From Rhizophlyctis rosea (taxonomy: Eukaryota > Chytridiomycota > Chytridiomycetes > Rhizophlyctidales > Rhizophlyctidaceae): 64,000 bases of DNA. A program made the translations under genes and the position numbers. This document shows positions 18,072 to 53,462 of the stretch, one piece after another. How positions within the stretch are numbered: the first letter of the stretch is position 1; every line of letters starts with the position of its first letter. The notes under the pieces are model-generated. The model had not been told where the DNA came from and did no database searches. It was given only the letters and a program-made list of their open reading frames with translations. The stretch covers positions 312-64,311 of the forward strand of contig JADGJC010000228.1 of the NCBI GenBank assembly GCA_027596075.1, written 5' to 3'.

Positions 18072-20769
18072 CTATAACATGATGGTCTTATTTGAACCCC
18101 TTCCCTGACGTCCGTTACGTCCCGGCCGCCCAAACCAACCAAATAGCATCTGACCCAGACTACGCATCCCGGTGGTTGTAATCGAATGAAATGCACGAGC
18201 GCGGTGGTCGCGGGAAGGTGGAGTAGGTTTGTCGGTGGAAGGTCCGATTTGAGGAGGATGAACCTGTGTCGTAACAGGGAGCGGTTCCCGATCGTGGATC
18301 AGGGTGGCCTTCTGTAAGTGCAACAAAATCGCTTCCCCACTGAGCGAATCACCCAGGACAGGTGTCTGTTTCGCTTCTGTTGTGGTTGTTTCCCTTGTCT
18401 TTGCCAAGTCCTCGAGCGCCTGTTGCGCCATCTCCATATGAAGTTTTGCATCAAGGGTCTCCTCGTGATCTTTTCCCAACAAGTGTTTGCGCCTCCCAGC
18501 ACTCGCTATATAATGCCTCGGATTCTGCGTATCTCCTTTGGTAATAGTACACATCCGCCAAGTCCTTCAACGAGTAGAGAGTGTGCTCGTGATCATCTCC
18601 CAATGTCTGCTTCCTCCTCACCAAACAATGCTCATGAATGACATCCGCTTCCGCAGATCTGCCCTGACTACAGCGCAGATTTCCCAAATCGCTCCTGAAG
18701 AAGAGCGTCACATGGTGATCCTCTCCAAACACCCGTGTGCCGCGTTCCAAACACTCCATGTATAGTGGTTCGGCTTCCGTAAGCTTGCCCTGCGCGTTAT
18801 ACACATCCGCCAATTCCTTCATTATTTTCAAGGCCTTCGCATCATCGTCTCCCGTCACCTGTCTCCTCATCTTCAAACAATACAACAAGAAAGTCTGGGC
18901 CTTCTCGTACTTCTCCTCGGCTAAGCAGGCCTTTGCACTTTCGTAAGCCCTTTTGAGTAGGCCTGGATGTTTGTCCCCTCTCTTGACACAGTCTGCATAT
19001 AACGGTTCCGCCTCCCCATGCTTTCCTTGCTCACCGTATGAGTCCGCCAACTTGAGGACAAAATCAATAGTTGTGGGATGATCCTCCCCCAGAATCCGCC
19101 TCATCCGCTCCGCACAATCCATGTACAGCACCTGAGCTTGCTCATGCTTTCCCTGGACAGCATATATCCAAGCCAACACGCCAACGTCTCGTACTGTATC
19201 CGGATGATCCTCTCCTAATTCTCGCATGCTTTCAGCTACCCGACTTTTGTACAGCGCCTCCGCCCGGTCATATTCTCCCTTACTGACATGTAACTTTGCC
19301 AAATCAAAGTCACTAGGTTGTCGACGAGCTCTAGCATCAGCAGCCTCCATCCCTGTCAACTGCTCCAAAACTTCTACATATTGTTCCATTAGCGCCTCCC
19401 CTTCCTCCTCATTTCCCTGCAGACTACAGCAAAGCGATATATTGACAGCGGACAATATTGTGATGGGATCGTTCTCTCCCAGCAGTCGCTCTCTGGTTTT
19501 CAAACAGTCCATGTACAGCCCTTTTGCGTGGTCATACAGCCCTTGATCACGGAGTAATGAAGCAAGCCTTCCCTGCCATTCCGCAACTCTCAAATCATTC
19601 CCTGCTACAGACGTTTGCTGTATATGGGTGCGCAGTGTGTCAACCATCCACGTGGACAGGAGCGATATAATCATTGGATCAAGCTTCTCAAACCCAACAG
19701 ACCCTTTAATTGCGTCATGAATGGCCAGCAAGTCACTTCCATCGCTCGCTTGGCTGTTCTCCGATTTGAGAGATGAGATGGTGCGGTAAAATGCCCCCAT
19801 GTCTCGAAATGCAACGATTTGACCTGGTGGCAGGGCGATCTCGAAATTGGATTGAGTTTCGGCGCACGCGAAGAGCTCGAAGACACACCAGGCGCGAGTA
19901 AGAGTCAGAGGTTTGTCCCATGGGGTAAGGATCATGAGGACGTTGCCGATTGAGCGGATGGCAGTGGTGAAAGTGTCTTGCAACCAACCAGAAGGAATAA
20001 TGTCTCGGGAGTGCTGGCTTAAAGAAAAGAGGTCGAACCATACAACGACGTCCGGGGTTTTTTGCTCCGCAAAGAAGGTAGTCACCGCATCCACGACTTC
20101 AAAGAATGGATACTGCCAACAATGGCTGATGAACCAGGTGGCGGGCGCGATGATATTGAGGTTGTTTGTGGGTTGGAAGAAAGAGGAGGAGGAGAGATCA
20201 GCGCCAGAGGTGTTGGAGGAGGAGAGTATGGGGTTGGAGGTGGGCGAGGAGAAGGGATGCTCGGGAATGGAAGAGTTCAAGGACAAATCAGAAGGTTGGT
20301 TGGATGGGATGGAAAGGTCGGAGGAGGGGAGGTCGGAGGAGGAGAGGTTGGAGGAGGCACGGTCGGAGGAGGAAAGGTCGGGTGAGGAAAGGTTGGAGGT
20401 GGCAACAATGGAGGAAACCTCGGAGGCACAGACCCCGTCGGATAGAGAGGAAGAGGAGGGAAGGTCGTCGAAATTCAAGAGACGAGAAGGAAGGTCAACA
20501 GGATGGAATTGCTTCGGTGTGGCAGGCAATGGGAAAACGTCATGGGATGCCAAAGAGGCAAGATGTTCACATAGCGACTTTCCGATCGGTGTTCCGGGTA
20601 TAACAAAAGTGTCGCAAACTTCCTTTGTGGTTAGACCTACCAATCTGTCACGGCCGCCGCATTGTTGGATAAATATTTCAAAGTAGGAAAGACGGACACC
20701 TTGTAGAGAGATCGAACCCGCTTCGGTGTGCAGGGTGGTGGGAGACGGGGAAACGGGTTGGCCTAACAT
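18072..20769 (-). CDS. TPR-repeat protein with N-terminal 'FISHCW...WCVFE' domain; late frameshift
   Basis: From ATG at 20769 one frame runs 772 codons. Residues about 80-190 are Ser-rich with repeated LSSSD units. Residues about 205-320 form a compact domain with FISHCWQYPFFEVVDA, VVVWFDLFSLSQH, SIGNVLMILTPWDKPL and LTRAWCVFELFACAE. I know this pattern from repeat-containing proteins of protists and algae and suspect a TIR-like alpha/beta fold, but that is inference. From about residue 390 come 42-residue kinesin-light-chain-type TPRs (ALYKSRVAESMRELGEDHPDT). The frame ends early, but a shift near 18495 restores the last repeat (HLLGKDHEETLDAKL) and runs to a stop at 18072. This implies a one-base insertion or two-base deletion, real or a sequencing error. 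It may be an innate-immunity-like receptor or a scaffold. It lies antisense inside the F-box array. Confidence 0.7.
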
Positions 20770-21360
20770 GTCGTCTTGAAAGCTGGAGACCAGTTAGCAA
20801 AGGATGTGAGCAAGGTATTCGAAGATTCCTACATACAGTGACGGTAGGTGTTACGCAATCGATTTAGGGAACAAGGTTGCTCCAATGTGGCAGAGCTAAC
20901 TTAAATGGTGCACTTTGACAGCTGCCTGGCGAGAATAGGATACCGTGAGCTTGAGTTCATTGCCCTCAAAGTTTGGGTTTTCGGCACCCATTAAATTCCT
21001 CACCGGTGGATGGAATCCGCGGTCCCCTCATACAAGTCTACCTCTCTAGTTGGTAATCCTAAGATACCGTGGCAGTTGGAAGGTTGGATTGGGGCAGACA
21101 AAGGCAAGCTGGCAAGATGAGAAGGCGGGGAGCAGGTGGGCCGCAATGCCACCGCATCGATTAGGCTCCGGATACAACCTCCGAACTCCGTTTTCGGGAT
21201 TGCACAGCCACACAGAGCAGAGCCAATACTCCTTTCCCACACTGCAAAGCCTGTTTGAGACTTCTTCCCCCCACTTTCATTTCATTTTCATTCCCTCCCA
21301 AACAAATCGCGTTTCCACACACGCTCAAGTACACTTCTGGCACAAAATACGTTTGTCGCA
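20770..21360. other. Divergent intergenic region
   Basis: Lies between the 5' ends of the antisense TPR gene and F-box copy 5. The last 120 bp before the ATG are pyrimidine-rich, as upstream of copies 6 and 7. No gene seen. Confidence 0.5.
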
Positions 21361-37640: not shown

Positions 37641-39616
37641 ATGGACGCAATGTCCAACACCAACCCCACCCAGGAAATTCCCATTGGTGAGCCCATGGAC
37701 TCAACAGAGTCTCTAACAATAGAGGAACCCACAGATACACCACCCGAGCTTTCTCCTTCGGAATTCGAAAAACATACTGGATATGTCTTGTGCGGGGTAC
37801 AGTATGCCAAACGACTGGCCTGTTGCCCCTTCCGAGCGTACAACTGTCAAAAAGCCTCACTCCTAACCTGCTCCTGACGGTACCAATTTTTCCAATTCAG
37901 AGCTATTTCTTCACCACATGGAACGTCCGTGCGGACGAGTGGGCAACAGGTAAGAATCTGGACCGCCTACCAATTTGGAACACCGCATCTCAATTGAGAC
38001 TCACTGATTTACCATTCGTCTTCCAAACCCCACCACCAGCCGTATTCCTTTCATACATCTTCCCAACTTCCCTCCTCCCAGTATCACTCTATACCCTCAG
38101 CGTCACACTTTCCGCAATTCTCTTTAGTTCCGCAGTGGGAGGCACCGTTGATCGTTACCCGCGTTTCAAAGGTTTGTATTGCCCATTTCTAAAACCCCGC
38201 TCTTTGATCTCACTCATCCTATCGTCCCTTAGCAAACCGCGCCTTCCTCCTCCTCCAAAAACTAGCAATAGCCCTCTCCGCCCTAGCCCTCTACCTCACC
38301 TCCCGCTCCTCAACACCCCGCATCCACCACACCGGTCTGGCATTCACATGCATAATCGGCATGATTCTCCGGTTAGCCAACATCGGTGCTACAATTTCAG
38401 TGGAAAAAGATTGGGTCATTGTCTTGGCAGGTGGAAGACACAAGTTCCTCACATCATTGAACAGCCATTTACGGAGAATCGATCTGATCTGTAAACTTCT
38501 TGCACCGTTGGCTGTATCGGGGTTGGGCTTGCTTTTGCCGACACCGACGGTCATGTTGGTCGTTGCGGGGATGAGTACGGCAACAGTACCGATAGAATGG
38601 GGGGCATATTATATTGTGTATAAACGCGTGCCGGAACTCCATGTTCCTAAAACCTTACCAGATACATCAAACACCACAACAACACCCAACACACCCCTTC
38701 CCGCTCCAACACAAACTACTGTACAACCGCCATCGCTCCCAGTCCGCCTCTTCACAGGCTTCAAATCCCACATCATAACCTATAAGACCTTCACCCACCA
38801 TCCCCTCTACCTAACAACCCTCTCTATCTCCCTCCTCTACTTCACCGTCCTCTCCTTCAACTCCGTCATGATCTCCTACCTCCTCTTGGAATCTTACTCA
38901 CCCGCCTTAGTCTCCGCCATGCGCTTCCTAGCCGTCCTCTCTGGTCTCTCTTCTACATTCGCATTTTCGAAAATGGTAGCAAGGCTGGGACTTGTGAGAA
39001 CGGGACTGTGGAGCGTGTGGATGGAGTTTGGGTTTTTGGTACCTGTTGTTGCGAGTTTTTGGGTCAGCGATGTGAAGTGGAAGGCGGTGATGATGTTTGG
39101 TGGAGTCGTTGGGAGTCGGTTTGGGCTTTGGTGTTTTGATTTGAGTCAGATGCAGGTTGTGCAGGAGAGGTGAGGTTGTTGGGATCTTTTTGTTTCGTGT
39201 CAATTTCTGTCTTGTTTGTATATTCTGCCTTTGTACTTGTGATCCAATCTCACATCGGCCCTCCCCAACCACAGAGTCAGCATATCAGAAAGCGGAGCAT
39301 TCAACGGCATGCAATCCACATACCAGAACTTCTTCGATCTTTGCGCTTCGGTATCAACCATGGTACGTAAACACACCCTCATTTCCCGACACACAACACC
39401 CCAATTCATCTTTCATCCCTTTCATCAAAGATATGGTCATCCCCCTCCCAATTCCACATTCCCGCCATAATCTCTGCAGGCGCCGTTCTATGCGCCGCGA
39501 TTACGTTCTCAATTTACTCGTTTAGGGAGCGTGGGCATTTGTTCCATGTTGAGAAGTTGGTGAGGTGGGGTGTTCCGGTGAGGGTTGTGAGGAGGCGGGG
39601 GCAGAGGGGTGCGTAG
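37641..39616 (+). CDS. Ferroportin-type iron exporter (SLC40 family)
   Basis: Six exons: 37641..37796, 37901..37949, 38040..38171, 38233..39169, 39275..39362 and 39431..39616, giving 516 codons (515 residues, close to the family's about 570). After a polar N terminus the first helix reads SYFFTTWNVRADEWATAVF, equivalent to the ferroportin FLSTWGDRMW segment. SAVGGTVDRYPR is the helix 2-3 loop. EKDWVIVLA followed by RRIDLICKLLAPLAV is the family signature. A Thr/Pro-rich cytosolic loop splits two bundles of about six helices. The C-terminal half keeps SGAFNGMQSTYQNFFDL (cf. RGIVNGVQ). Ferroportins export Fe2+ or related metals from the cytosol or into vacuoles. All splice junctions rejoin codons cleanly. 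Confidence 0.88.
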
Positions 39617-40236: not shown

Positions 40237-43200
40237 ATGATCACCAGCAACATGCCAAAAGCCGAGCGATCAGGCCACTCGGGAGCAGCAGCCCCAACAG
40301 GAACCACCGAAATAAGTGGCAGTTGGCCTGCGGTCTTCAGACCACATCTTCTGGACACCGACGACGATGATATTCTAAACAGAACACGTGCCTCCCACCG
40401 GTCCAAATCGTTGCCCTTCTCCCTCAATTCTGCTGGCAAGGATGCTGTTGCTGACACAAAACCTTCGACGCCACTGGCGGGCAGGGCCAAAAAGCCAAAG
40501 GATAAAGCAGGAAGCGATGTCTCCATTAGTCTATACAAAAGTACAATCTCGCGAGCAACGAGTTTAGATGGACAGAGCCTTGAAACACATTCGGACGAAG
40601 ATGAAGGGGCGGAAGAAGAGGAGAAGGATGATGGAAATGAGGATGAGGAGGAAACGGATGTTCCAACTATGCGCGACCTACTTGGGAAAGAATTCTATGA
40701 CACAGAAACAGACATCAAAGAGGCTTATCAAACATTGCAAGACGCTCTGGGACCAAACCCGTCGCTTCCTGTTCCGCCAGCCGCGCCGGTGTCGGGTGAG
40801 ATACCTGGTCAAGTGGTGAAGGAGGGAAAGAAACGACCAGCTTCGGCGGTAAGGATCAAACCCACTTCACATAATCATCAGAAGCGGCCCGCATCTGCGG
40901 CTGCTGCTCCACGACGCAGTACATCAGCCATACCTCCAACTGCATCCGGGCAAAAAGCACGACCACAAAGCGCCCTACCTGCAAGCAGACAACATTCAAC
41001 CATGACACGGCCTGCAAGTGCAAAATCCCGACCTGCAAGCGCACTATCGCGACCTGCAAGTGCAAAATCACAACCTACCATTCCATCTCCATTTGATCCG
41101 GGCGCTGCCGCACGGGTTCTGCGAAATGGAGCATCCCAGTTGGACCCCGGTGCAATATTTCCTCAAGAGGGATTTTCCGCATCCGTGGCAAGATCTCGAC
41201 CAGTGTCTGCTGTATGGAGGTCTGATGGCAATCTACCGCGGTCAAGGGTAGAGTCTCGGCAAGCTTCTCGTCCCTCTTCTGCCATATCGGCCAAACCAAA
41301 GATTGACTCCCGGCCCTTGTCGAGGGCGGCAAGTCGGCCTGGAACTGCCAAGTAATGTGCCGATGCAACATCGTTTTTCACTATTCCCTTTGTTTCCCAT
41401 GACTGATTGTGTTCTATCTAGAACCCAAAAGTCGGTCTCGGAAAGCATTCTGTCCCAACTCCTAAAAGAAGAGTCACTTCAACCACCACCATTACGCAAA
41501 CCCGCGTACCCACCGGAATCCAAAATCCTGCCCCTCGAGTGGTTCGACGATCCAGAAATGGAGTCCCACACACCTCAGGAATGGCTCCTAATGGGCAAAC
41601 GACGAGGCCTCAAAGCCACGTCCGCTCACAGCCGATACTTCCACTACCACAAAAACACCGGAACGGACTGGGATTGGGCTCCTTGTTGGGTGACGGACTA
41701 CGACCTTGAAAACGACCGATATACGATTGAATGGCTACCTTCAGGTCCGCAAAAACTTGTCAAACGACTGAACCTCCTGTTTGATGATGAAGACAGGGAG
41801 ATGTTTTACGCCCGGATTGAGAAAGCCATTGTGACACGGGCTAGAGCACAGCAGGAGTTAAGTTACTCAGAGGGTATTGAGAAAAGCACGGGAGAGGATT
41901 TGGCTCCGTTACCACACAAATGGAAGGAGAAGATATTCGGACGGGTCGGTATTCGGGCGCGGCAAAAACGGCGGGTGGGAGTGTTGGATAACGCCTTGAA
42001 GGAGGTTGAAGAGGAGTTTACATTTGCCATGAAGAAAGCTCGTCATGAATGGACTCAAGGCGGTTTCGTGGAATCATTAGAACATTCCACCTCACAATCT
42101 CAACGATTTGCCGAGCTGGCGCTGATGAGATCTGGTGCGCAGGTTGCGGACGAGAGTGGAAGGTTGTTGAACCAAGTTGCGATTGCAACGAGGGACTTGT
42201 CGACTTATATGTTTAGTGCCAACTCCAACGTCCAGAAAGCTATTATTCAAATCCTGGCCGCACAAGCGGAAGTCGTGCCGAGTGATACATCATTCTTTCG
42301 ACGGGATTTTGATTTCCCGACGCCTTTTGGGTTGTTTAGGGAGCGGGCTGAGTCGCAGTGTGGAGTTGTCAGAGCGAGGTTGGGAAATGAGTGGCCACGA
42401 CGTGTTGCGAGTATTATTGAGGAGCTTTTGGGTAGGTTTTTTGATTTGAAGGAGACGAGTGAGAGGAGGTATCTGGACAGTCGGTTGAATGATTTTTTGA
42501 ATCTTGTTGATTTGATTGTTGAGAGTCAGTTGAGGGCTTTGGTGCTGGGTGGATTGAGAGACTTTTTGGGGTTATTTCATGTCAAGGTGGGGAGTACGTT
42601 GGAGGAGGGTGTGACGCTTTCGCCGGCAGAGTGGGGGATGGCTGTGCCGACGTTGTTTGGTGTGCATTTGTCAACGGACTTCATGGCGGATCCACCGCAT
42701 GATCCGGTTTGGACTACAAACCTCACACCGTCATTAGACGAACTCGAAGCATCCATCCTATCACTATTCTACCTCCCAATCCAACAAACCACCAACACCA
42801 TCCCACCAATCGACCACATCGTCTTAGTCGCTCTCTACGGAAACGTAGAAATAACAACATTCCTCAAAACACTCGAGGCCGATGCTCCACTTCTCCGCCA
42901 TGGAGCCGAAATGCTGCGGGGGTTCGTACGAGCTGTCGAAGATCCCGTAAAGAAGTTGGTTGACTCCTACCGCCAATACGACTTCCTCCTCAACACACAC
43001 GAAGACGTCTCCGCCGCCTCCCTGGACCACATCTCCACCCTCCTCTCCACGTACACAACCGCAAAAGCTTCCGTCGGTGAAATCTCTCTTTCCGTAGTGG
43101 ACATTCCGCCACTCTCCATAGATTGCACAGAAGTAAAACAACTCCTAGACGTGAGGGTGGTCGGGATGTTGGAAGAATTGCAAAAAACATTAGCTGCGAG

Positions 43201-46200
43201 GATTGTGGAGAAGAGCAAATACCTGAGCGGAGTGTTTGAAGAACTTTACGGACGTGTTACAAATGATCCTGGATATGATGCTACGAGCTGGAGGGCTTTG
43301 AAAGAAGCGGCGGAGGGGTGTGAGAACGAAGCGAGGAGTTATTCTGCGGGATTCGAAGCTCTTCAGGGCATATGGGACTTGATGCAAGGATATCAAATCC
43401 CACTATCGGATGAAGACATAACAACGTATTGGACAACCATTGCGTGGCCTCGGAAATTGGAGTCGGAGCTGCAATATACCGATCAACGGCTGTCGAATTC
43501 CCGGGGTCAGATTCTGGCGAAATTGCGGATTGATACAGAGTATTTTGAGAGCTCCTTGAGTGCTTATGTCGAGGAAGTGGGTGTGTATGCTAAATGTGCA
43601 GAGCCGGAGCGGAATGAAGAGATGCGGGATAGAGTAGTCAATTTACGTGGAAGGGTTGATCGCTTGGAAGGTGTTGCAAAGACTATTCGGGAACGGTGCA
43701 GCGTGATGGGAGTTCGGGAAGAGATTTCCGTTACGGTTTTGGAAGATCTTATGGTAGAGTTTGGGAGGATCGAAATGCTGTGGAAGTACGCATATTCACA
43801 ACGGACGTCGATAGCGACGTGGCTTTCCTCTTATTTCGTCGATTTGGATGCCAATCTGATGGTTGCGACTGTTGCGGAGTGGAGACGGACTGGGAGGATT
43901 TTGGAGGCGGGGTTGAAGGAAGGTACACCTGGACGTGCGGTTTTGTCTACACTTCAAACGGAACTGGACGGTTTCTCGCGTTACATGCGTGTGATTGAAT
44001 GTCTCCGCAACCCAGCACTGAAAGAAGAACACTGGGAGGATATAGGCAAAGTCGTTGGGTTGGGCTATGGTGATATTGCAGGCTTACGACTGAGAGAACT
44101 CGTCATGTTGGATCTGGAATTGATCCAGGACATTGTTATGGATGTCAGTCGGGAAGCTACGGTGGAGTATCGGCTGGAATGTGAGTTGGACGCTATGCAG
44201 AAGGAGCTTACGAGTCGTGAATTTGCACTGGTTAGTTTTCATGGGTACAAATGGATTCATGCAAGGGATTTGGAAGACGTGGGACAGGTTTTGGACGATT
44301 ACCTTGTGCGGTGCGGAAGACTTGTTGGAGAGACGAGGAGTGCGGTGTTGGGAGGGAAGGTGGAAGGGTTCCGGAATCGAGTTGGAAGGGCGCAAGAGGT
44401 TGTTGAAGGGTGGGGGAAAGTGCAGAAGGGAGTTAGGAGGGTTTGGCCCCTGGTCGGAGTCGGAGGCGGAGGAGGAGGGGAAGAAGAGGATTTCGAAGGT
44501 GTCAAGAAGAGCTTGGGTATTTTGAGTGACGTCTTGGAGAAAACTCGGAAATACATACTTTTCATCCTCCGTGCGGACCTTCTCGACCTCATCACGAAAG
44601 CTAATGCACGAGTCATGGCCATCAGTGAGCACCTTGGAGCATTGATAGAAGTCAAGCGCAATAAGTTTCCCCGACTGTATTTCCTTGATGACGATGCGGT
44701 GATGGATTTGGTAGCTTGTGAAAGCCATGTGCCGGATTTGCAAGGGCGGTTAGTGGACGTGTTTGAATGCGTCGATAAATGGGATTGCGTCCAAGAGATC
44801 GAGAGAGGGGGATGGGTCATACAAAGCTGGCGTAGTGTTGAAGGAGAGACGGTGGCACTGAAAAATGGTGTCAAGTGTGTTGGCGGAGTGGAAGATTGGC
44901 TTGGCGCATTCCAGAAAGGGGGTAGGGAAACGTTGGCAGGGATGATCAGGGATATTTGTGCAGTGGAGTGGCTGGCGTTGTCAGTGGAGGAGGTGTTGGC
45001 ACGATGGCCAGTACAGGTGCTGAGGATTGCTGCATCTATGGTGTTGACTGCCGATGAAAGCGACACAGAAGCGTCCGGGGTGGATGTGAGGAAGAAACTT
45101 GCAAAACTTGTTAACCAGCTTGTAGAATTCGGGCAAAATGGAGAAGCTACACCCCTACAACGGCTGCAAAGTGAGAATCTGATCATGTGGGTCAATCACT
45201 TGCTCGAGTATGGGCAGGAAGGGAATGGGAGTGCCGGCGGCGGTGGTACGGCTGCAACACCCTATCTTCGATACTATTTTGAGGACAATGGTCCAAACAC
45301 TACGCCCGCAATGGAAGCGAAGCTTCGAATTCAAATGGGCTACCACATTGTAAACTATGGGTTTGAATATGGAGGCGCAACGGCTCGCGTAGCTCTTACT
45401 CCGGCAGTTGGTCGCTGCATGCTGCAGATGATGCAAGCAATGAAGCAAGGTGGAAGTCCGGTGCTGCTTGGGCCAGATGACGCGGGAAAAGCAGAAACCA
45501 TCAGCGAACTGAGCTCGTTGACGGGACGAATGTGCTTCTGCGTTGAGTTGCTCTCGGAAGCTGACTATCAACAGTTGACGAGGGTATTTATGGGAATGTT
45601 GAGAGGGTTATGGGTCTGTTTCAAGGGTTTGGAAAGAATGAGGGCGGATCACATATCGGTGCTGAGTCACGAATTCGGAATGCTGCAGAGAAGTATGATG
45701 ATCGCCAGTAAGACGAGGCATGTGCATTCATTGGAGGGACGGGAGATCATTGTGAATCCTGCATGTGCCATGTTTGCTACCTTGACGGAGAGAAATCCGT
45801 ACAGCAAGTGGCGGAAGCTGCCAGCCAACGCGCGCTCGGTATGGAGGCCGATAGCGCTAGCGAGACCGGATGTTGACGTCGTAAAAATGGCGAAGGAAAT
45901 CGGGTCGAGAAAATCGACCACTCAAGCATGGCGGGCACCACAAATGAAGGAAGTGGCGGAGAAATTTGGGGTCGAACTCACACAGTACCATGTGGAGAAT
46001 GTAGTCAGAAAAGTTTGCGATTCAACCGCAAGGGTAGTCATTGTTTACGGCAGTCCTATGGCGGGGAAGTCGGCGGGCATACTGATTGCAGCAACTCTAC
46101 GCAACGCGTCGGTGCAACGCTGTTACCCATGCGCCGGTGGTCCAGCCGCTCTGAGCAATGCTATTCATGCCGCAGTTGAGAAGGCGAATGCCTCTCTGTC

Positions 46201-49200
46201 GTCAGATCAGGAGACGTGGATTCTGGTTGATTTCTTGCGCATTACAGATTTTGAGGTTGGTGGGGCCGCTCATCAGCTCCTGATCCTCAATGGTCGGACA
46301 GTACGATTACCTCCATCATTTCGGATCCTGATTGAGGTGGCAAGTCTGGACCGCGCCGCCCCATCATTGTTGTTGAAAAGTAGTCTAGTTTTCGTTCACA
46401 GGGAGAAGGTTACACTGCGCATGATATTTAATGTGGCAGTGGAGAGGTTGCCGGGTTTCCTTGGACAGACCAGAGAATTTATAAAGGAAGCCTTCAGCCA
46501 CATTGTTCGACCTTGCTTGGACTTCGTACGTTCTTCCTGTCGGAGTGGGAAGCGCTTGATGGATGATGACAGAGTCGTTGTTGCGCACTTGACTATACTG
46601 CTGGCGGGAATCATGGAAGACTTTGGGAGCGAAGGGTTTGAACGTTTGACGGATGAGGAACAATTTTCATGGGTAACAGCTGCTCTGCTGTTTGGATTGT
46701 TTCATATTGTTGGAGCGTTTGCTGATATGGAAAGTCGACGGCGTTTTAATACCTTCGTTAGACAGACCATGTTCACAGATGGATTGGGTGGGCTCAAAGA
46801 AGCAACTGGTCGGGACGTCCTTTCGGTCGCAGAAATGCCAGGAGATGGCCTAATATATGATTACCATTATGACAAAAAGCTGCTGCGTTGGAGACCATGG
46901 AAGTCCATGCCCGCAGAGCGATTGCTCACTCCCGGTGTTATAATCACAGACACAGTGAGAGCGTGGTATATTGCCGACCTAGCAAGATCAAATGAGACTC
47001 CGTTTGTTGTTTCGGGGCCGGCTGGGGTGGGCAAGACCAATATTACGAAGGCGTTGCTGCATACGATGACAAGGGGCGATGCGCAGGAAGCACCGCTGAT
47101 TTTCTCGTACAGTCAGCTATGTACCGAAGATTCATTGCGGAGTCGCATAGAGCAACATTTGCAGAAGAAACGGCGCGGGACATTAGGTACCAGATCTGGG
47201 AAAACAAAGACGGTCCTAATCGATGGGCTAGATGTGGCCTTGGAATCAGCGAATAGATCAGTTGAATTCATAAGGTCGTGGAAGGAGACGGGGCGTTGGT
47301 TCACCGGCACTGCTGCAGAAGAGTTGTCCAAAGTAGAAGATATCATCGTTATGGCCAATATGGACCACGTTCCAGCCAACCATTCTGTCCGTTTCTTGAG
47401 GCACTTTCTACCAATCGTCATTGACGATGATGTAGAAGGCAGAAGTTGTGCAATTGCAGCGGAGATTTTGCCTCCCACCATAGGCTCTTTGTCCCTCACG
47501 GACATGCTGAATGCCACACTGGATGTTTTCTCCTTGGCTCGTCGAACGTTCCCGGTTCTGCCGAAAAAACCATTCCAACTGTTCAATCTACGTAACATCT
47601 TAGCAGTGTTGACTGCACTGAAGGTTGTTAGCAGGACAACGGATATGTCAACTTTGGTGCATAGCTGGGTGCACGCTTGCTACAGATCCTTCTACGATCC
47701 TTTGTCGACTGATAAAGATCGCACAATGTTCAGATATCGATTGAGGGACATGATAGAAAAGCATTTCCACACGGATGCAATGGAAGGGTTGCCTGACAAC
47801 GACCCAATTCTCTATGCTCCGCCGGATGCTGGGAGGGATGGAGCTCCACGTCCTTTAACATCTTTCTCTGATTACGTGGAAGTAACAACTCGATCATATG
47901 CTTTGGAGAATGGTGATATCAGCGGTTCTCCTCGACTGAGTGCTGATGAGGTGCAAACTGCTTTGACAGTATATGACACCATCATCACGCCTGAGGGTCA
48001 TGTTTCTCTGATTGGCTTTGAGCGGGAACCAGGTCTTTCGATAGCGAAGCTGGGGTGCTGGTTCGCAGGATTCAGATGGGTGGAGTATACGATGTTGGAT
48101 AAATGGAATACCTTCTTGCATGCAGCTGCAATGAATGTGATTGAAATAAGTAAACCATTAGTGGTCATTCTCTATGAGAATGCGCTCAACCAGAGTACAT
48201 GGGGCGAAGTGCTGCACATTTTGAGATGGGGCGTAGAACCAAGTAGCGACATGATTACAGCTTATCTGACTCGGATGGAAGGATTGGAAGGGTTCACGCA
48301 TCCACAAGCGCAGCACCAAGTGCAGCAATATTTGTTAGCATTCCTTCGTATCATCATCTTGGGAGAGGTTCCGCCTTTTGAAGATGAAGGCAGCTATTAT
48401 AGGAAAGTCCTGCAACGAGTGCCAGCCTTCGGTCGCCGCACCTCCATCAAAAGCTTCACTCGGTGGTCAATAGAATCCGTCCAAACAAAATTCGAACGTG
48501 TCGCCCACCCAACCATGCGCATTTGTCACAATGCCATATGTAATTTCTTCCATAAGTTCATTGACTATAGTAGCTCGGTACGGGAATTGCAGTACCGAGC
48601 GGAAGGGATCCGGCCGTACATACCATTGGACGTCGACAGCGCGTTAACAGTTTTCTCACATATCTACTACAAAGAATACAACGCAGTTGATGAAGGGCTC
48701 ACCCGCTTCAAGACTGGCATTATCAAAATAGACATCCTTTTGGAAGCTATTGCCCAGGTCGAAGCGGATTTTGCCAAGAGTCGTGATGACTTTGATGCCG
48801 CGGTGGTCCATACACGCGAGTTTTTGACGCAGATGGAGGATGTGCGGACTACCATCGGTCGTATTTCGAATATAGTTAGAAATCAGGGAGAGATTACGAA
48901 TAGCCTGAAGGACGAGCATACCAAATTGAGCAATTCCTTGATGGCGGACCTGGCGACGGTTACGCCCACTTTACATGCCGTACAGAAGCAGGCTGAGACA
49001 CTGACGAAAAACGATATTTATGAGCTGAAAACTATGGTATGTTCATGACTTGTACTTGCGGCTCACCAGTCTTTCGCTGCGTTCTGACCACAGCATTCAG
49101 ATCAACCCACCAAACGGTTTACAGAAAGTGCTGGAAACCATTTGCATTCTGTTGAAGGTGGACGCCAAGCCAAACGAGACAACATGGGAAACTTCCAGAC

Positions 49201-52200
49201 GGATGCTCAATGATTTCCATGGCAAAATTACCACATTCGATTCTGAAGCGGTGACAATACCAACGGTTTTGAGGATCGAGACATACAGCAAAGACCCGGA
49301 TTTCAACCCGCGGGATATCCTTAAGATTTCGAAAGCAGGTGGAATACTAGCGTCCTGGGTCCTGGCTCTGATTCGTTTCCACAACGTGAACTTGGCTCTA
49401 CAACCAAAAAAGCGTCAGGTGGCGGAATTGGCGGCAAAGATGGAAGAGCTTCAACGTAGCTTGGAGGCTAAACGAAAAGAGTTAGGGGAGCTGGAGGTGA
49501 AGTTGGGTGCAATGAGGGGCGAATTTGATGAGGTTGTGAACCGGAAGGAAGGCCTGTTTAGGATATTCAAGGAGGCGGACGTGAAGAACCGCTCTGCGCT
49601 TGAACTACGAGGTCAATTGGTGCACATACGTGTGAGATGGGTGGAGGAGTCTGCGCGCTTGGACAGGGAGCGAGAGGGCGTCCTTGGGAACTGTTTGATT
49701 GCAACAGGGACGGTGATGATGCTTGGAGCGGCCACCACTGACGTCAGGCGGTCTATGCAACGCATTTGGATGAAAGATTTGCGAGACGGCGGCTTGAAGA
49801 TAGCGGAGGAACAGCCGTTCAGCTTATGCGATTTCCTGACACAAGGTCAGACAGTGGACCAGCTAGTGGCGTCCGAGTTCCGGCTGGACGTCGGAGCATT
49901 TGAATCGATACTTATTGCTAGACACCACCGCAGTATGCCCTTGATTTTGGACCCTTTTGACAGATTCCCATTGGCAATGAAGATCTTTCAGCGAGAACGT
50001 GTTATGTATCTTAACGCTGATGACATAGATCTGAAGGGCAACCTGGTTGAGGCATTGAAGAAAGGGTCCCATGTCGTTTTGAGAATAGATGTTGATGTTC
50101 CCGAGATTGTACTTCGGGTGCTAGCAGAGAAAGAGGTAGGGGGCAGAGATGGCGGATTCGAGCTGACAATGGATGACGAGGTCATCGCAGTGCACGGTTC
50201 CTTCCGCATGATCTTCTGCACCCATCGGCGTTCCATTGTGGCACCCTGGGTTCGGCATTTTGTACCGGTTCAAATCCCGATGACCCAAGATGCAAAAGAA
50301 CTCCTCCTGACCAATCTTCTTCCGGTCAAGTTGAGTGAGCAAAGGACGCGGACCACCATGGACAAATTGGGAAGACGGAGCCGGCTGGAACAGTTGGAAA
50401 AACGGGCGTTGGAGTTCGTAAATACCCTTCAACCACATGAATTGAGCGCAACCTCTATTATAGATAACGAACATGAGATGCGGGTTACCCGAGAACAGGA
50501 TGCGGGGGCTAAACAGCTCGAAACGGACTTAGACTCACACATCAAGTGGTATGAGCGTGTCGCTGAGCAAGCGGCAAGTCTGTGGGGGGTGTTGGCAGCA
50601 ATGGGAAAGATAAGCGACCAATACGCGGCAGACCTCGGCGAATTCATCGAAACATGCCGCAAGTACCTAGCATCCGTGCCGGAGAATGATAAACACAAGC
50701 TTGCTGAAGCTCGGAGGGCACTAGTTCAGTGGATGCTATCATTTTACATGCCCATGTTTGAACAAAGCCAGCGGATCTGGTTTGCGTTCAATATCGCAGT
50801 CCAATATCATCGGCAGGTGAAAGGCGAAGCAAACCTGGACGTTCCTCCATCACATTACTACTTCTTGATCAATGGGAAGGCAGATCCGTCCTTACCGGCC
50901 AAAAAGAAATACCACGTTGACGAATTTCCTCCGAATCCACCGACATCATACATAACCAAAAAACGATGGAATAGAATCCTCGAGTTATCCAAAATTCCAC
51001 AATTCTCACACTTTGCGATGGAATTCGTTCGGTTTGCAAATCGATCGACTACACCCGTTTCGGACGCCAGTTGGGAGGATGTATTCAGAGCGATCTCGCC
51101 GTGGAAGCATAAGTTCCCATCGCGGTGGGATAACCTGACCAAGTTTGAGAAGATTCTAGTTGGGATATGTTTGCGACCGGATAGCTTGAAGGGAAGCCTG
51201 GAAGATTATGTGAGCTCAATTTTGTGGGAAGGGCTGCTTGACCAATGGGAGGTCTTGGAACAGCGCTATTTGCTCTCGAGTCCCATTGTGCCGATCCTGG
51301 TTGAGGCGTGGGAGGATGTTTTGCCTCAGATCAGGAGATTGGCAGTTAGAAAAAACGTTATCAATGCTTTTACTGTGCTTCCACTCGGGTACCGTCCTGC
51401 TGGTCATTCGCTAGTGGATCAAGCATTGGAGGATGCGTTGAGCAAGGGCCGGTGGTTAGTTTTGCTCAACTGTGAATTTGACCAGCCCTACATCAAGGCC
51501 TTGCATCAGCGCTTGGAGCTTCTGGCCTCACAACCCGCAAACGCCAAGGAACCTGCCGCACATCCAAACTTCCGTCTCTGGCTCGTCTCATCTAGCCACT
51601 GCAACCTCCCGCCCCGTCTGTCGGCACAAGCGATCAAGGTCAAAACGGACGCATACCTCGGGGTCAAAACAGCCTTCGCCCAAATCTTCCCAACTGTCGA
51701 AGAGAACCTTGTTCCGCACGAGTTCAAGGGCACAATGTCCTACCGCAATTCTATACTACACCTCGCGATATTTCACGCATACATCTCCGCACGTTCAACA
51801 CTCGGCCCCGCCGGTTTCGTCATCCCATTCCGTGTCACCAGTCAAGATTTGGCAATGGCGGTGCGTTTCGTCAGAGACATATATGGTCACGCCAAAGCGG
51901 CGATGAACGAGAAGGCAATTCTGAAAAGAGTAAGCTCCGTCGTGTGCGACTTCAGCTTCGGCTGTCACATACCGTTTGACGCGTCGGATGATAAGCGACT
52001 TCTCGCGGCACTGTTTGCGGATTTCATGTCGTTATCATGGGGATTGGGAGAGGAACAGGGAGGGACCAAGCTGCCGTCTTTGAAGTTTGTGCAGGAAGCA
52101 GTGCAAAGGAATGATATGGACACGGCTTACAAACGGATACAAGAACTGCCGGTTGGCGATCCAAAGGATTTCGAAATGCTGGGACTCCCGGAGAACGTTG

Positions 52201-53462
52201 TACTCTACGTAAACCATGCTAAATCACTACAAATAGCTTCCGCCATGCAATCGAATATCGAGCTGGTGTTTGATCCGCCACGGTGTGTCTATGAAATGTA
52301 TGAGGATATGATGGCCCTTTGTACGAGTGTGCGGGACAGGATTGACAAGGTCATTACGGGATCGATCTTCCGTGATGTGCTGGAGGGCCAGAAAGTAGAG
52401 CTAGATATACCAACGGCGTTGCAGATGCATACTATATACAAATCGCATGGGAAGCATATGGATGAGCTGCTGATTGAAAACGTTGAATCGTACGGTCGTC
52501 TCGTAGAAGTGATAAGTAGAACGATTACGTCGGCGATAGAGCAACTACAAGGCAAAAAATTGTTGGATGATAGGACGTACATGATGTTAGATAGTTTGCA
52601 TAAGAATGCGGTTCCCGAAGTCTGGACACGCAATGGCTTATGTTATTATACGTGTCTTCCATTTGCGCGGTGGATGGATGATCTGATTGTGCGGCTGGGT
52701 TCTGTTCGGGAATGGTACTCGATACGAACGGAGGATCGTGGAGGGACCTGGAGGACGCCCGTGATTTTTGACATATCGAAGACCTTCCATCCAGGACGAT
52801 TGCTGCAAGGTAAGCTTGGAAGAGCGATGCGCTTTACGTGTAGGTTTCGCCTGCTGATTTTTGGCTGAAAATTTAATCCCCCCTCCACAGCTGTTTTGAA
52901 TGACCATGCCATAATCAGCAAGGAGCCGGTTGAAAACTTAGAGATGGACACCATGGTCGTATCAGCAAAGCAGACCGCACCACCCGAGCGCGGGTGCTAC
53001 ATAAGTGGAATGATGCTACTGGGAGCGGCATGGGACAATGCTCGCAACAGACTGAAAGAGTCGAAACCTTACGAACTTTATACGTCAATTCCATGTGTAA
53101 GTCAACAGACTGCAGAAGTCAATTGCCAGAAAGGGACAGCCATACTAACCGCATAAACATCAAATTAGATTTGGCTCCAGCCCACCATTCAATACAATCC
53201 CACCAACACACCATCCACCACGACGCAACAACAAACGTCAACAAAACGCACCTCGCCGAAATACAAATGTCCCTTCTATATCTACAAACCCAATGCATCT
53301 CCAGAAGGCAGAACGGATGTCTCTGATCCTGAAGGGACTGAGGTGTCGCCGCAGGATTTGTTCCTTACTAATGTAGAACTCAACACTGATGTGCCGTCAA
53401 AGCTTTGGACGAAGCGGAGCGTGGCTTTAGTGTGTGAGCTGCCTCATGTTTTCCATACCTGA
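40237..53462 (+). CDS. Axonemal-type dynein heavy chain with degenerate AAA1 site
   Basis: Five exons: 40237..41351, 41422..49036, 49101..52809, 52891..53096 and 53169..53462, giving 4313 codons (4312 residues). Residues about 200-330 are disordered with repeated RPASA units; then a long tail and linker. Motor ring: AAA1 at about 1695-1850 has Walker A GPDDAGKA and Walker B CFKGLERM in place of GPAGTGKT and CFDEFNRI, so it should not hydrolyse ATP. AAA2 keeps YGSPMAGKS (about 1915), AAA3 keeps SGPAGVGKTN (about 2237), and AAA4 has lost its loop (LIGFEREPGLSIAKL, about 2567). The stalk coiled coils flank a recognisable microtubule-binding domain (INPPNGLQKVLETICILL, DPDFNPRDILKISKA). The C-terminal domain is present (SGMMLLGAAWDNARN, KYKCPFYIYK, LWTKRSVALVCEL). 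It resembles a non-catalytic, DNHD1-like dynein; subtype uncertain. Confidence 0.93.
40840..41070 (+). repeat. RPASA-type degenerate peptide repeat in the dynein N terminus
   Basis: Units such as KRPASA, TRPASAK, SRPASAL and SRPASAK recur every 5-15 residues, and the DNA shows matching gacctgcaagtgca units in tandem near 41008-41070. The region is basic and Pro/Ser/Ala-rich, so it is probably disordered. Similar RPxSA repeats occur in other microtubule or cilium proteins; any function here is inference. Confidence 0.8.

Follow-up and report, generated by a model that had tools for sequence, protein, structure and literature searches.

A probable pseudo-motor among the dyneins of a chytrid: a heavy chain with an IDAa-like tail and a degenerate AAA1 site

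The 64,000-nucleotide stretch of Rhizophlyctis rosea DNA analyzed here (contig JADGJC010000228.1, positions 312 to 64,311; hereafter the window) carries on its forward strand, at 40237-53462, a gene for a dynein heavy chain in which the catalytic motifs of the first ATPase site, AAA1, are lost. With moderate confidence, and on the basis of sequence comparisons, we read its product as a pseudo-motor: a single-headed inner-arm heavy chain that would have an IDAa-type docking tail and a dead AAA1 ATPase, and that selection would have kept in chytrids. Since relatives carry a similarly wrecked AAA1, the gene has probably been retained for a docked component with a structural or regulatory role, not for a motor. 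It is filed as a derived relative and not as an active IDAa motor, because the catalytic AAA1 (GPAGTGKT, CFDEFNR) is absent. An initial annotation, made from the letters of the window, had proposed a non-motor dynein that was not a product of decay; the first proposal is supported by the loss of AAA1 common to a chytrid family, the second by the open frame and the relatives, in the sense that simple decay does not describe the gene.

The gene model has five exons encoding 4312 codons and a stop (12.9 kb of coding sequence), and its four introns of 70, 64, 81 and 72 bases all have GT-AG borders, in agreement with the open frame and clean introns first described. The start ATG is one choice among options; alignments with homologues begin at about residue 153, span the junction of exons 1 and 2 and extend towards the C-terminus. 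About 158 stops would be expected by chance in 4312 codons, given the base composition of the gene at each codon position, and the frame is open. A pseudogene is rejected in view of the open frame, the intact splice sites and the homologues in relatives. Pfam matches to DHC_N2, AAA_6, AAA_7, the lids, the stalk, AAA_9, the D6 region and the C-terminal domain leave the dynein order of linker, AAA ring, stalk and C-terminal domain intact; AAA_8, which represents AAA4, had no Pfam match in the protein. The stalk is retained, as was first noted (Pfam MT, 66 bits): its landmarks lie 93 residues apart, compared to 103-107 in five canonical chains, and the microtubule-binding region is present. The layout, all on the forward strand, is as follows.

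40237-41351, 41422-49036, 49101-52809, 52891-53096 and 53169-53462: the exons, from the gene model.
40237..41351: exon 1, a low-complexity N-terminal extension with RPxSA motifs (eight in residues 200-349).
41534..42674: putative tail of the IDAa type, roughly residues 410-790; it contains LEWFDDPEMES...VKRLNLLFD (from profile searches).
43739..44950: DHC_N2 region, comprising the end of the tail and the linker (186 bits when the genome was searched, 183 when the protein was scanned).
49001..49385: part of the stalk, from the end of coiled coil 1 through the microtubule-binding region to the start of coiled coil 2, with an intron inside (Pfam MT).
51450..53462: AAA6 (RWLVLLNCEF) to the C-terminal domain (Pfam Dynein_heavy, AAA_lid_11, Dynein_C).

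At AAA1 the letters and coordinates first reported for the three altered motifs, GPDDAGKA, CFKGLERM and the loop, are exact to the base. They lie in a genuine AAA1, for Pfam AAA_6 matches there with 110 bits, covering only positions 1-172 of 327. The distance from the AAA1 to the AAA2 P-loop is 193 residues, compared to 281 in canonical chains. The affected positions, again on the forward strand, are these.

45470..45493: GPDDAGKA, a dead motif where AAA1 should have its Walker A.
45617..45640: CFKGLERM, at the AAA1 Walker B, with both acidic residues gone.
45788..45823: AAA1 loop, ERNPYSKWRKLP, where NPGYAGRxELP is expected.
45887..45931: site at which about 90 residues are absent from the AAA1 small subdomain, inside one exon (from P-loop spacing and an alignment gap).
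46367..46387: position in AAA2, LLLKSSL (Arg to Lys), which we take to be the arginine finger serving AAA1.

The same kind of damage is found in other chytrids. A profile built from the window protein and P0023, a Percolomonas cosmopolitus chain with the same tail and an intact AAA1, returned 98 proteins, from which ten family members were picked by hand on name and identity: two from Spizellomyces (P0142 is from S. punctatus, which may be usable as a laboratory species), one from Powellomyces, three Geranomyces entries, one each from Thoreauomyces, Nowakowskiella and Polyrhizophydium, and one metagenomic protein (P0201). The family thus has 11 members including the window protein, and its named chytrid homologues span six genera. 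They align over most of their length, from the tail to the C-terminal region, at 23-36% identity for the named homologues and 20-27%, in long pieces, for P0201. All ten members that are readable at AAA1 (P0186 is not) lack the Walker B DE pair and the NPGYAGR loop, and eight of them lack the Walker A GK[ST]. The finger arginine in AAA2 is lost in 10 of the 11 and kept in P0177. P-loop spacing is 280-286 residues in eight members; P0142 has 252 and P0186 has 164. The initial annotation had suggested that other chytrids be searched for orthologues with the same replacements, and had named a normal AAA1 in close relatives as a refutation: none of the ten readable family members has both boxes, although P0177 and P0201 retain GKT.

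These homologues were not easily found. An earlier word search with AAA1-AAA3 yielded mostly DNAH3/7/12/6 chains at 21-34% identity, and none of the ten was among the best 120 of its 161 proteins. Another with the tail (residues 425-545) gave no match among 10 candidates, a weak negative since it also missed P0023, which shares VKRLNLLFD with the query. Because two of three homology searches missed the family, there may be further orthologues, beyond those found, whose AAA1 is intact.

A profile of the AAA1 region was run on 219 proteins, consisting of 217 fetched proteins, the window protein and a chain on contig C603 of the same genome, and 217 yielded rows. GK[ST] and DE were both present in 188, six were gapped at Walker A, including P0186, and 23 failed. 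The failures were ten family members, the C603 chain, four DNHD1 proteins, two Tritrichomonas-type chains and six animal entries, some of them partial. An error of the gene model or assembly at AAA1 might be suspected from the absence of about 90 residues that most relatives have. We give this explanation almost no weight: AAA1 sits within a single uninterrupted exon, which speaks against a missed exon, and comparable damage is present in gene models made independently for other genera. An AlphaFold model of AAA1-AAA3 had a predicted local distance difference test (pLDDT) score of 72.5 and a predicted template modeling (pTM) score of 0.68, too coarse for the shape of the pocket; its 50 listed structural matches are dynein or axonemal-repeat chains, in agreement with a dynein ring fold.

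Departures at AAA1 were also seen outside the chytrids. Two frog heavy chains of about 5190 residues, P0209 (Lithobates pipiens) and P0212 (Hyla sarda), read GDPGVGKT or GDHSVGKT with CFDDFH, and perhaps represent another weakened axonemal dynein. P0217, and P0218 from Tritrichomonas foetus, are degenerate heavy chains in which the AAA1 Walker B is altered.

The other sites of the ring are unequally preserved. As first described, the AAA2 and AAA3 loops are intact, with GK[ST] at both in 11 of 11 members, and the AAA4 motifs are lost; the AAA4 P-loop is gone in all ten members readable there. The forward-strand features are listed here.

46049..46072: AAA2 Walker A, GSPMAGKS.
47015..47038: AAA3 Walker A, GPAGVGKT.
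47213..47236: AAA3 Walker B, VLIDGLDV, with DG where the nine other readable members have DD.
47390..47407: RFLRHF, retained, presumably the part of AAA3 whose arginine is turned to AAA2.
48014..48184: AAA4 nucleotide motifs, lost.

These features bear on the suggestion that the protein is an ATP-gated microtubule binder, a regulated brake in which AAA3, with AAA2, would open and close the stalk without AAA1. The constant AAA3 Walker A, the DD pair in nine of the ten members readable at Walker B, and the retained stalk and microtubule-binding region are in its favor, as is an AAA4 arginine beside the AAA3 site that the window gene shares with both Spizellomyces proteins. That arginine is absent in the other eight of 11 members, however, and the window gene is itself the exception with DG in Walker B, so that we regard such gating as quite unlikely. 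That AAA3 is the only likely nucleotide switch, as originally proposed, is unproven: the AAA2 P-loop is also kept, and the AAA3 Walker B reads DG.

The assignment to the inner arms rests on similarity of the tail, which appears to be of the IDAa/DNAH1 kind. Over about 360 residues, the window tail matches that of P0023 with 101 bits. A profile built on the tails of three of the 11 family members, P0023 and P0123 scored 195 bits with 9e5c_6a in the PDB, 181 with 9y6s_6k (“IDAa heavy chain”), 146 with 8glv_JG, 92-93 with DNAH1 and 91 with DHC2. The structure-match listing gives 9y6s as Leishmania and 8glv as Chlamydomonas; 9e5c is, we believe, Trypanosoma. Because P0023 and P0123 sat in this profile, the comparison was repeated on local proteins with nine tails of the chytrid family alone (P0177 and P0186 were left out of both profiles), and again gave high scores to P0123 (141 bits), P0125 of Trypanosoma theileri (141), P0126 (132) and P0023 (122). 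P0099 (87) and P0124 (79) scored lower, as did the DNAH1-class proteins P0136, P0129 and P0036 (38-40). When the P0023 tail was searched against the genome, the window gene was the only near-full match (109 bits), and the next, on contig C410, reached 28 bits.

Within the family, conservation has shifted from AAA1 towards the tail. In 14 chosen pairs for which domain identities were computed, AAA1 was the most conserved domain of the canonical pairs: P0023 and P0123 are 90% identical in AAA1 and 68% in the tail motif, and P0023 compared with P0124 and P0003 gives 72-73% in AAA1, with 37% and 20%, respectively, in the tail motif. The window protein compared with P0140, P0155 and P0180 is 57-61% identical in the tail motif, the best conserved part, 24-32% in AAA1 and 14-21% in AAA4. 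Higher conservation of the tail than of AAA1 is the pattern that might be expected if selection acted on docking and not on force.

Several observations weigh against the reading as a selection-kept inner-arm pseudo-motor. The tail also resembles that of DNAH1. The tail-plus-linker tree, from which P0142, P0173, P0174, P0177 and P0186 were left out, recovers the family (100/100) and sets it apart from DNAH6/14 (100/100), but joins it to the kinetoplastid and Percolomonas chains at only 65/25; P0099, which looked DNAH1-like by its best PDB match, joins the family there at 97/85, and both are long branches. Approximately unbiased (AU) tests were made on two motor-region sets, both lacking P0142, P0173, P0174 and P0186. 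With DNHD1 and the C603 chain included, a run in which the program warned of too few replicates, grouping with five IDAa-type chains (p-AU 0.0009) and with DNAH1/3/7/IDAa (p-AU 0.0024) was rejected, and grouping with DNHD1 (p-AU 0.11) or with C603 (p-AU 0.70) was not. The DNAH1/3/7/IDAa set becomes the best place for the motor region only in an alignment stripped of the AAA1 columns and of the remaining degenerate dyneins. On this AAA1-free set cytoplasmic, DNAH2, DNAH10 and DNAH6/14 ancestry is rejected by AU tests, and the linker on its own gives the same result; with the AAA2-3 part of the set on its own, DNAH10 is the only ancestry rejected (p-AU 0.048). No class can be assigned from the trees, and those of the motor region draw the family to other degenerate chains. 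Of the motor tree called for in the initial annotation, it can be said that the family is firm and that its placement among the DNAH, DYNC and DNHD1 classes is not. In the pair P0155-P0171, moreover, the linker (62%) is more conserved than the tail motif (59%). The family also evolves very fast, with 20-36% identity compared to 77-81% for the two canonical chains that had a chytrid match in the set, so the motor part is indeed under relaxed constraint. Codon usage, which carries no information on selection, is nearer to the window background (0.925) than to the canonical C31 gene (0.784) and gives no sign of high expression.

The pull of the motor trees raises the alternative that the family belongs with vertebrate DNHD1, as an old degenerate branch of non-axonemal dyneins with no place in the inner arms. 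The AAA1 damage is of the same kind (GRDGLGKA and LLENVN in the mouse), and, besides the AU test that leaves this pairing standing, a FastTree motor tree without P0173, in which the ten family members included form one clade (support 1.0), joins the family, C603, DNHD1 and the Tritrichomonas-type chains with support 0.98. Against this, fast chains would be expected to join through their long branches, and the DNHD1 tail scored at most 1.0 bit in the family tail comparison and below 0 with the chytrid-only profile, compared to 122-141 bits for IDAa-like chains. Membership of DNHD1 is rejected for want of a homologous tail, and we find this ancestry very doubtful; the conflict between tail and motor trees may reflect long-branch attraction. 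The likeness to DNHD1 first drawn holds as an idea, in that both have a degenerate AAA1 within an otherwise full-length chain, and fails in the tail. DNHD1 has been described in one article as an orphan “ghost gene,” possibly becoming a pseudogene (PMC8754002).

The relaxed constraint invites a further explanation, that a dispensable inner arm is on its way to loss and its ring is slowly decaying. This would agree with the very fast evolution of the family, with the P-loop spacing in the window species, shorter only in P0186, with the additional change in the AAA3 Walker B, and with a preprint in which deletion of IDAa in Leishmania gave the mildest swimming defect among the single-headed arms, with altered wavelength (PMC12637542). 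A frame open over 4312 codons in spite of some 158 expected stops, long homologues in six named genera, the P-loops that all 11 members keep at AAA2 and AAA3, and a well conserved tail speak for maintenance, and we judge progressive loss unlikely.

The 44.1 Mb genome contains 12 heavy-chain genes with an AAA_6 match, ten of which carry GPAGTGKT and CFDEFNR; the two with a dead AAA1 are the window gene and that on C603. By PDB matches, the chains on C410, C629 and C6 are DNAH3/7/12-like and that on C336 is DNAH6-like; those on C629 and C336 are 77-81% identical to proteins of Entophlyctis, Gorgonomyces and Powellomyces, which bears out the chytrid origin presumed in the initial annotation. The remaining six we take from their motifs to be DYNC1, DYNC2, DNAH2, DNAH10 and two outer-arm chains, names supported only by tree positions. 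None of this genome’s own chains falls in the DNAH1 clade of the FastTree motor tree. A homologue of p28/DNALI1 was found.

The C603 chain (113.9-121.6 kb, minus strand) has a 2551-residue frame with GIATCSSATGKT and IIFRNLD at AAA1, no Dynein_C match, and no close relative among the fetched proteins. It resembles the window protein in having AAA1 destroyed and the AAA2 P-loop kept, but the two are 20-22% identical over two long aligned stretches and the similarity of their tails is small (8.9 bits). As no chain of this genome groups with DNAH1, the C603 chain may be a converted DNAH1-like arm, which is a guess. At C431:136137-136800 there is a DHC_N2 fragment with an in-frame stop, either a relic or a fragment; among 13 query proteins it is nearest to P0122 (32% over 195 residues), which clusters with cytoplasmic dynein.

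Compared with known systems, the window protein shares with IDAa (9y6s_6k, with similar tails in 9e5c_6a and 8glv_JG) a homologous N-terminal tail, linker, stalk and C-terminal domain, and differs in having no working AAA1 or AAA4. Its motor domains are only 13-26% identical to those of P0023. DNAH1 and Chlamydomonas DHC2 have related tails (91-93 bits), but their match is weaker than that of IDAa-like chains, and AAA1 is intact in the DNAH1 proteins checked. Human IDAa has been identified as DNAH12 (PMC10266980), which is described elsewhere as lacking the microtubule-binding domain (PMC11949491). DNAH12 is an inner-arm chain that departs from the motor plan, as the window protein would be on the present reading, although the latter retains the microtubule-binding region and loses AAA1.

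Single-headed inner arms are positioned by their N-termini, and radial spoke 1 is the site of IDAa, together with actin and p28 (Walton et al. 2023, PMC10266980). This published context, with the Leishmania deletion, fits an axonemal place tolerant of a non-motor head. If the pseudo-motor reading holds, the tail would still dock where dynein a sits, close to radial spoke 1, and AAA2 and AAA3 would hold ATP as structural glue. Lacking AAA1 hydrolysis, the head would make no linker power stroke and undergo no ATP-driven release, and might tune the waveform as a passive cross-bridge, a spacer or a brake. In the literature listings and passages searched, among them passages of the 2026 fungal flagellum atlas (PMC13358043), no description of such a chytrid dynein was found.

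Three other features of the window were recorded. A ferroportin gene (FPN1, 245 bits) lies at 38208-39170 on the forward strand, just upstream of the dynein gene. Between 10882 and 26380 on the same strand there is a run of related open frames sharing segments like VCKTFR...DPLRVASVRTL; they may form a tandem gene family, leucine-rich repeat- or F-box-like by eye, and the one frame tested had no Pfam match. A 780-residue frame at 18454-20793 on the reverse strand contains many tetratricopeptide repeats (TPR), and its match to the nephrocystin-3 TPR was below the cut-off.

We suggest tentatively, from these comparisons, that chytrids could occupy the dynein-a place in their 96-nm repeat with a conserved pseudo-motor, able to dock and to contact the neighboring doublet yet unable to step. 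Since vertebrates altered the same place in a different manner, in DNAH12, the dynein-a place would have a structural role in the first instance and a motor role only in the second. If this is true, chytrids have a conserved axonemal dynein heavy chain that has been stripped of its ATPase and has retained its docking tail and stalk, and the share of inner-arm work that is force, as opposed to passive linkage, would become testable.

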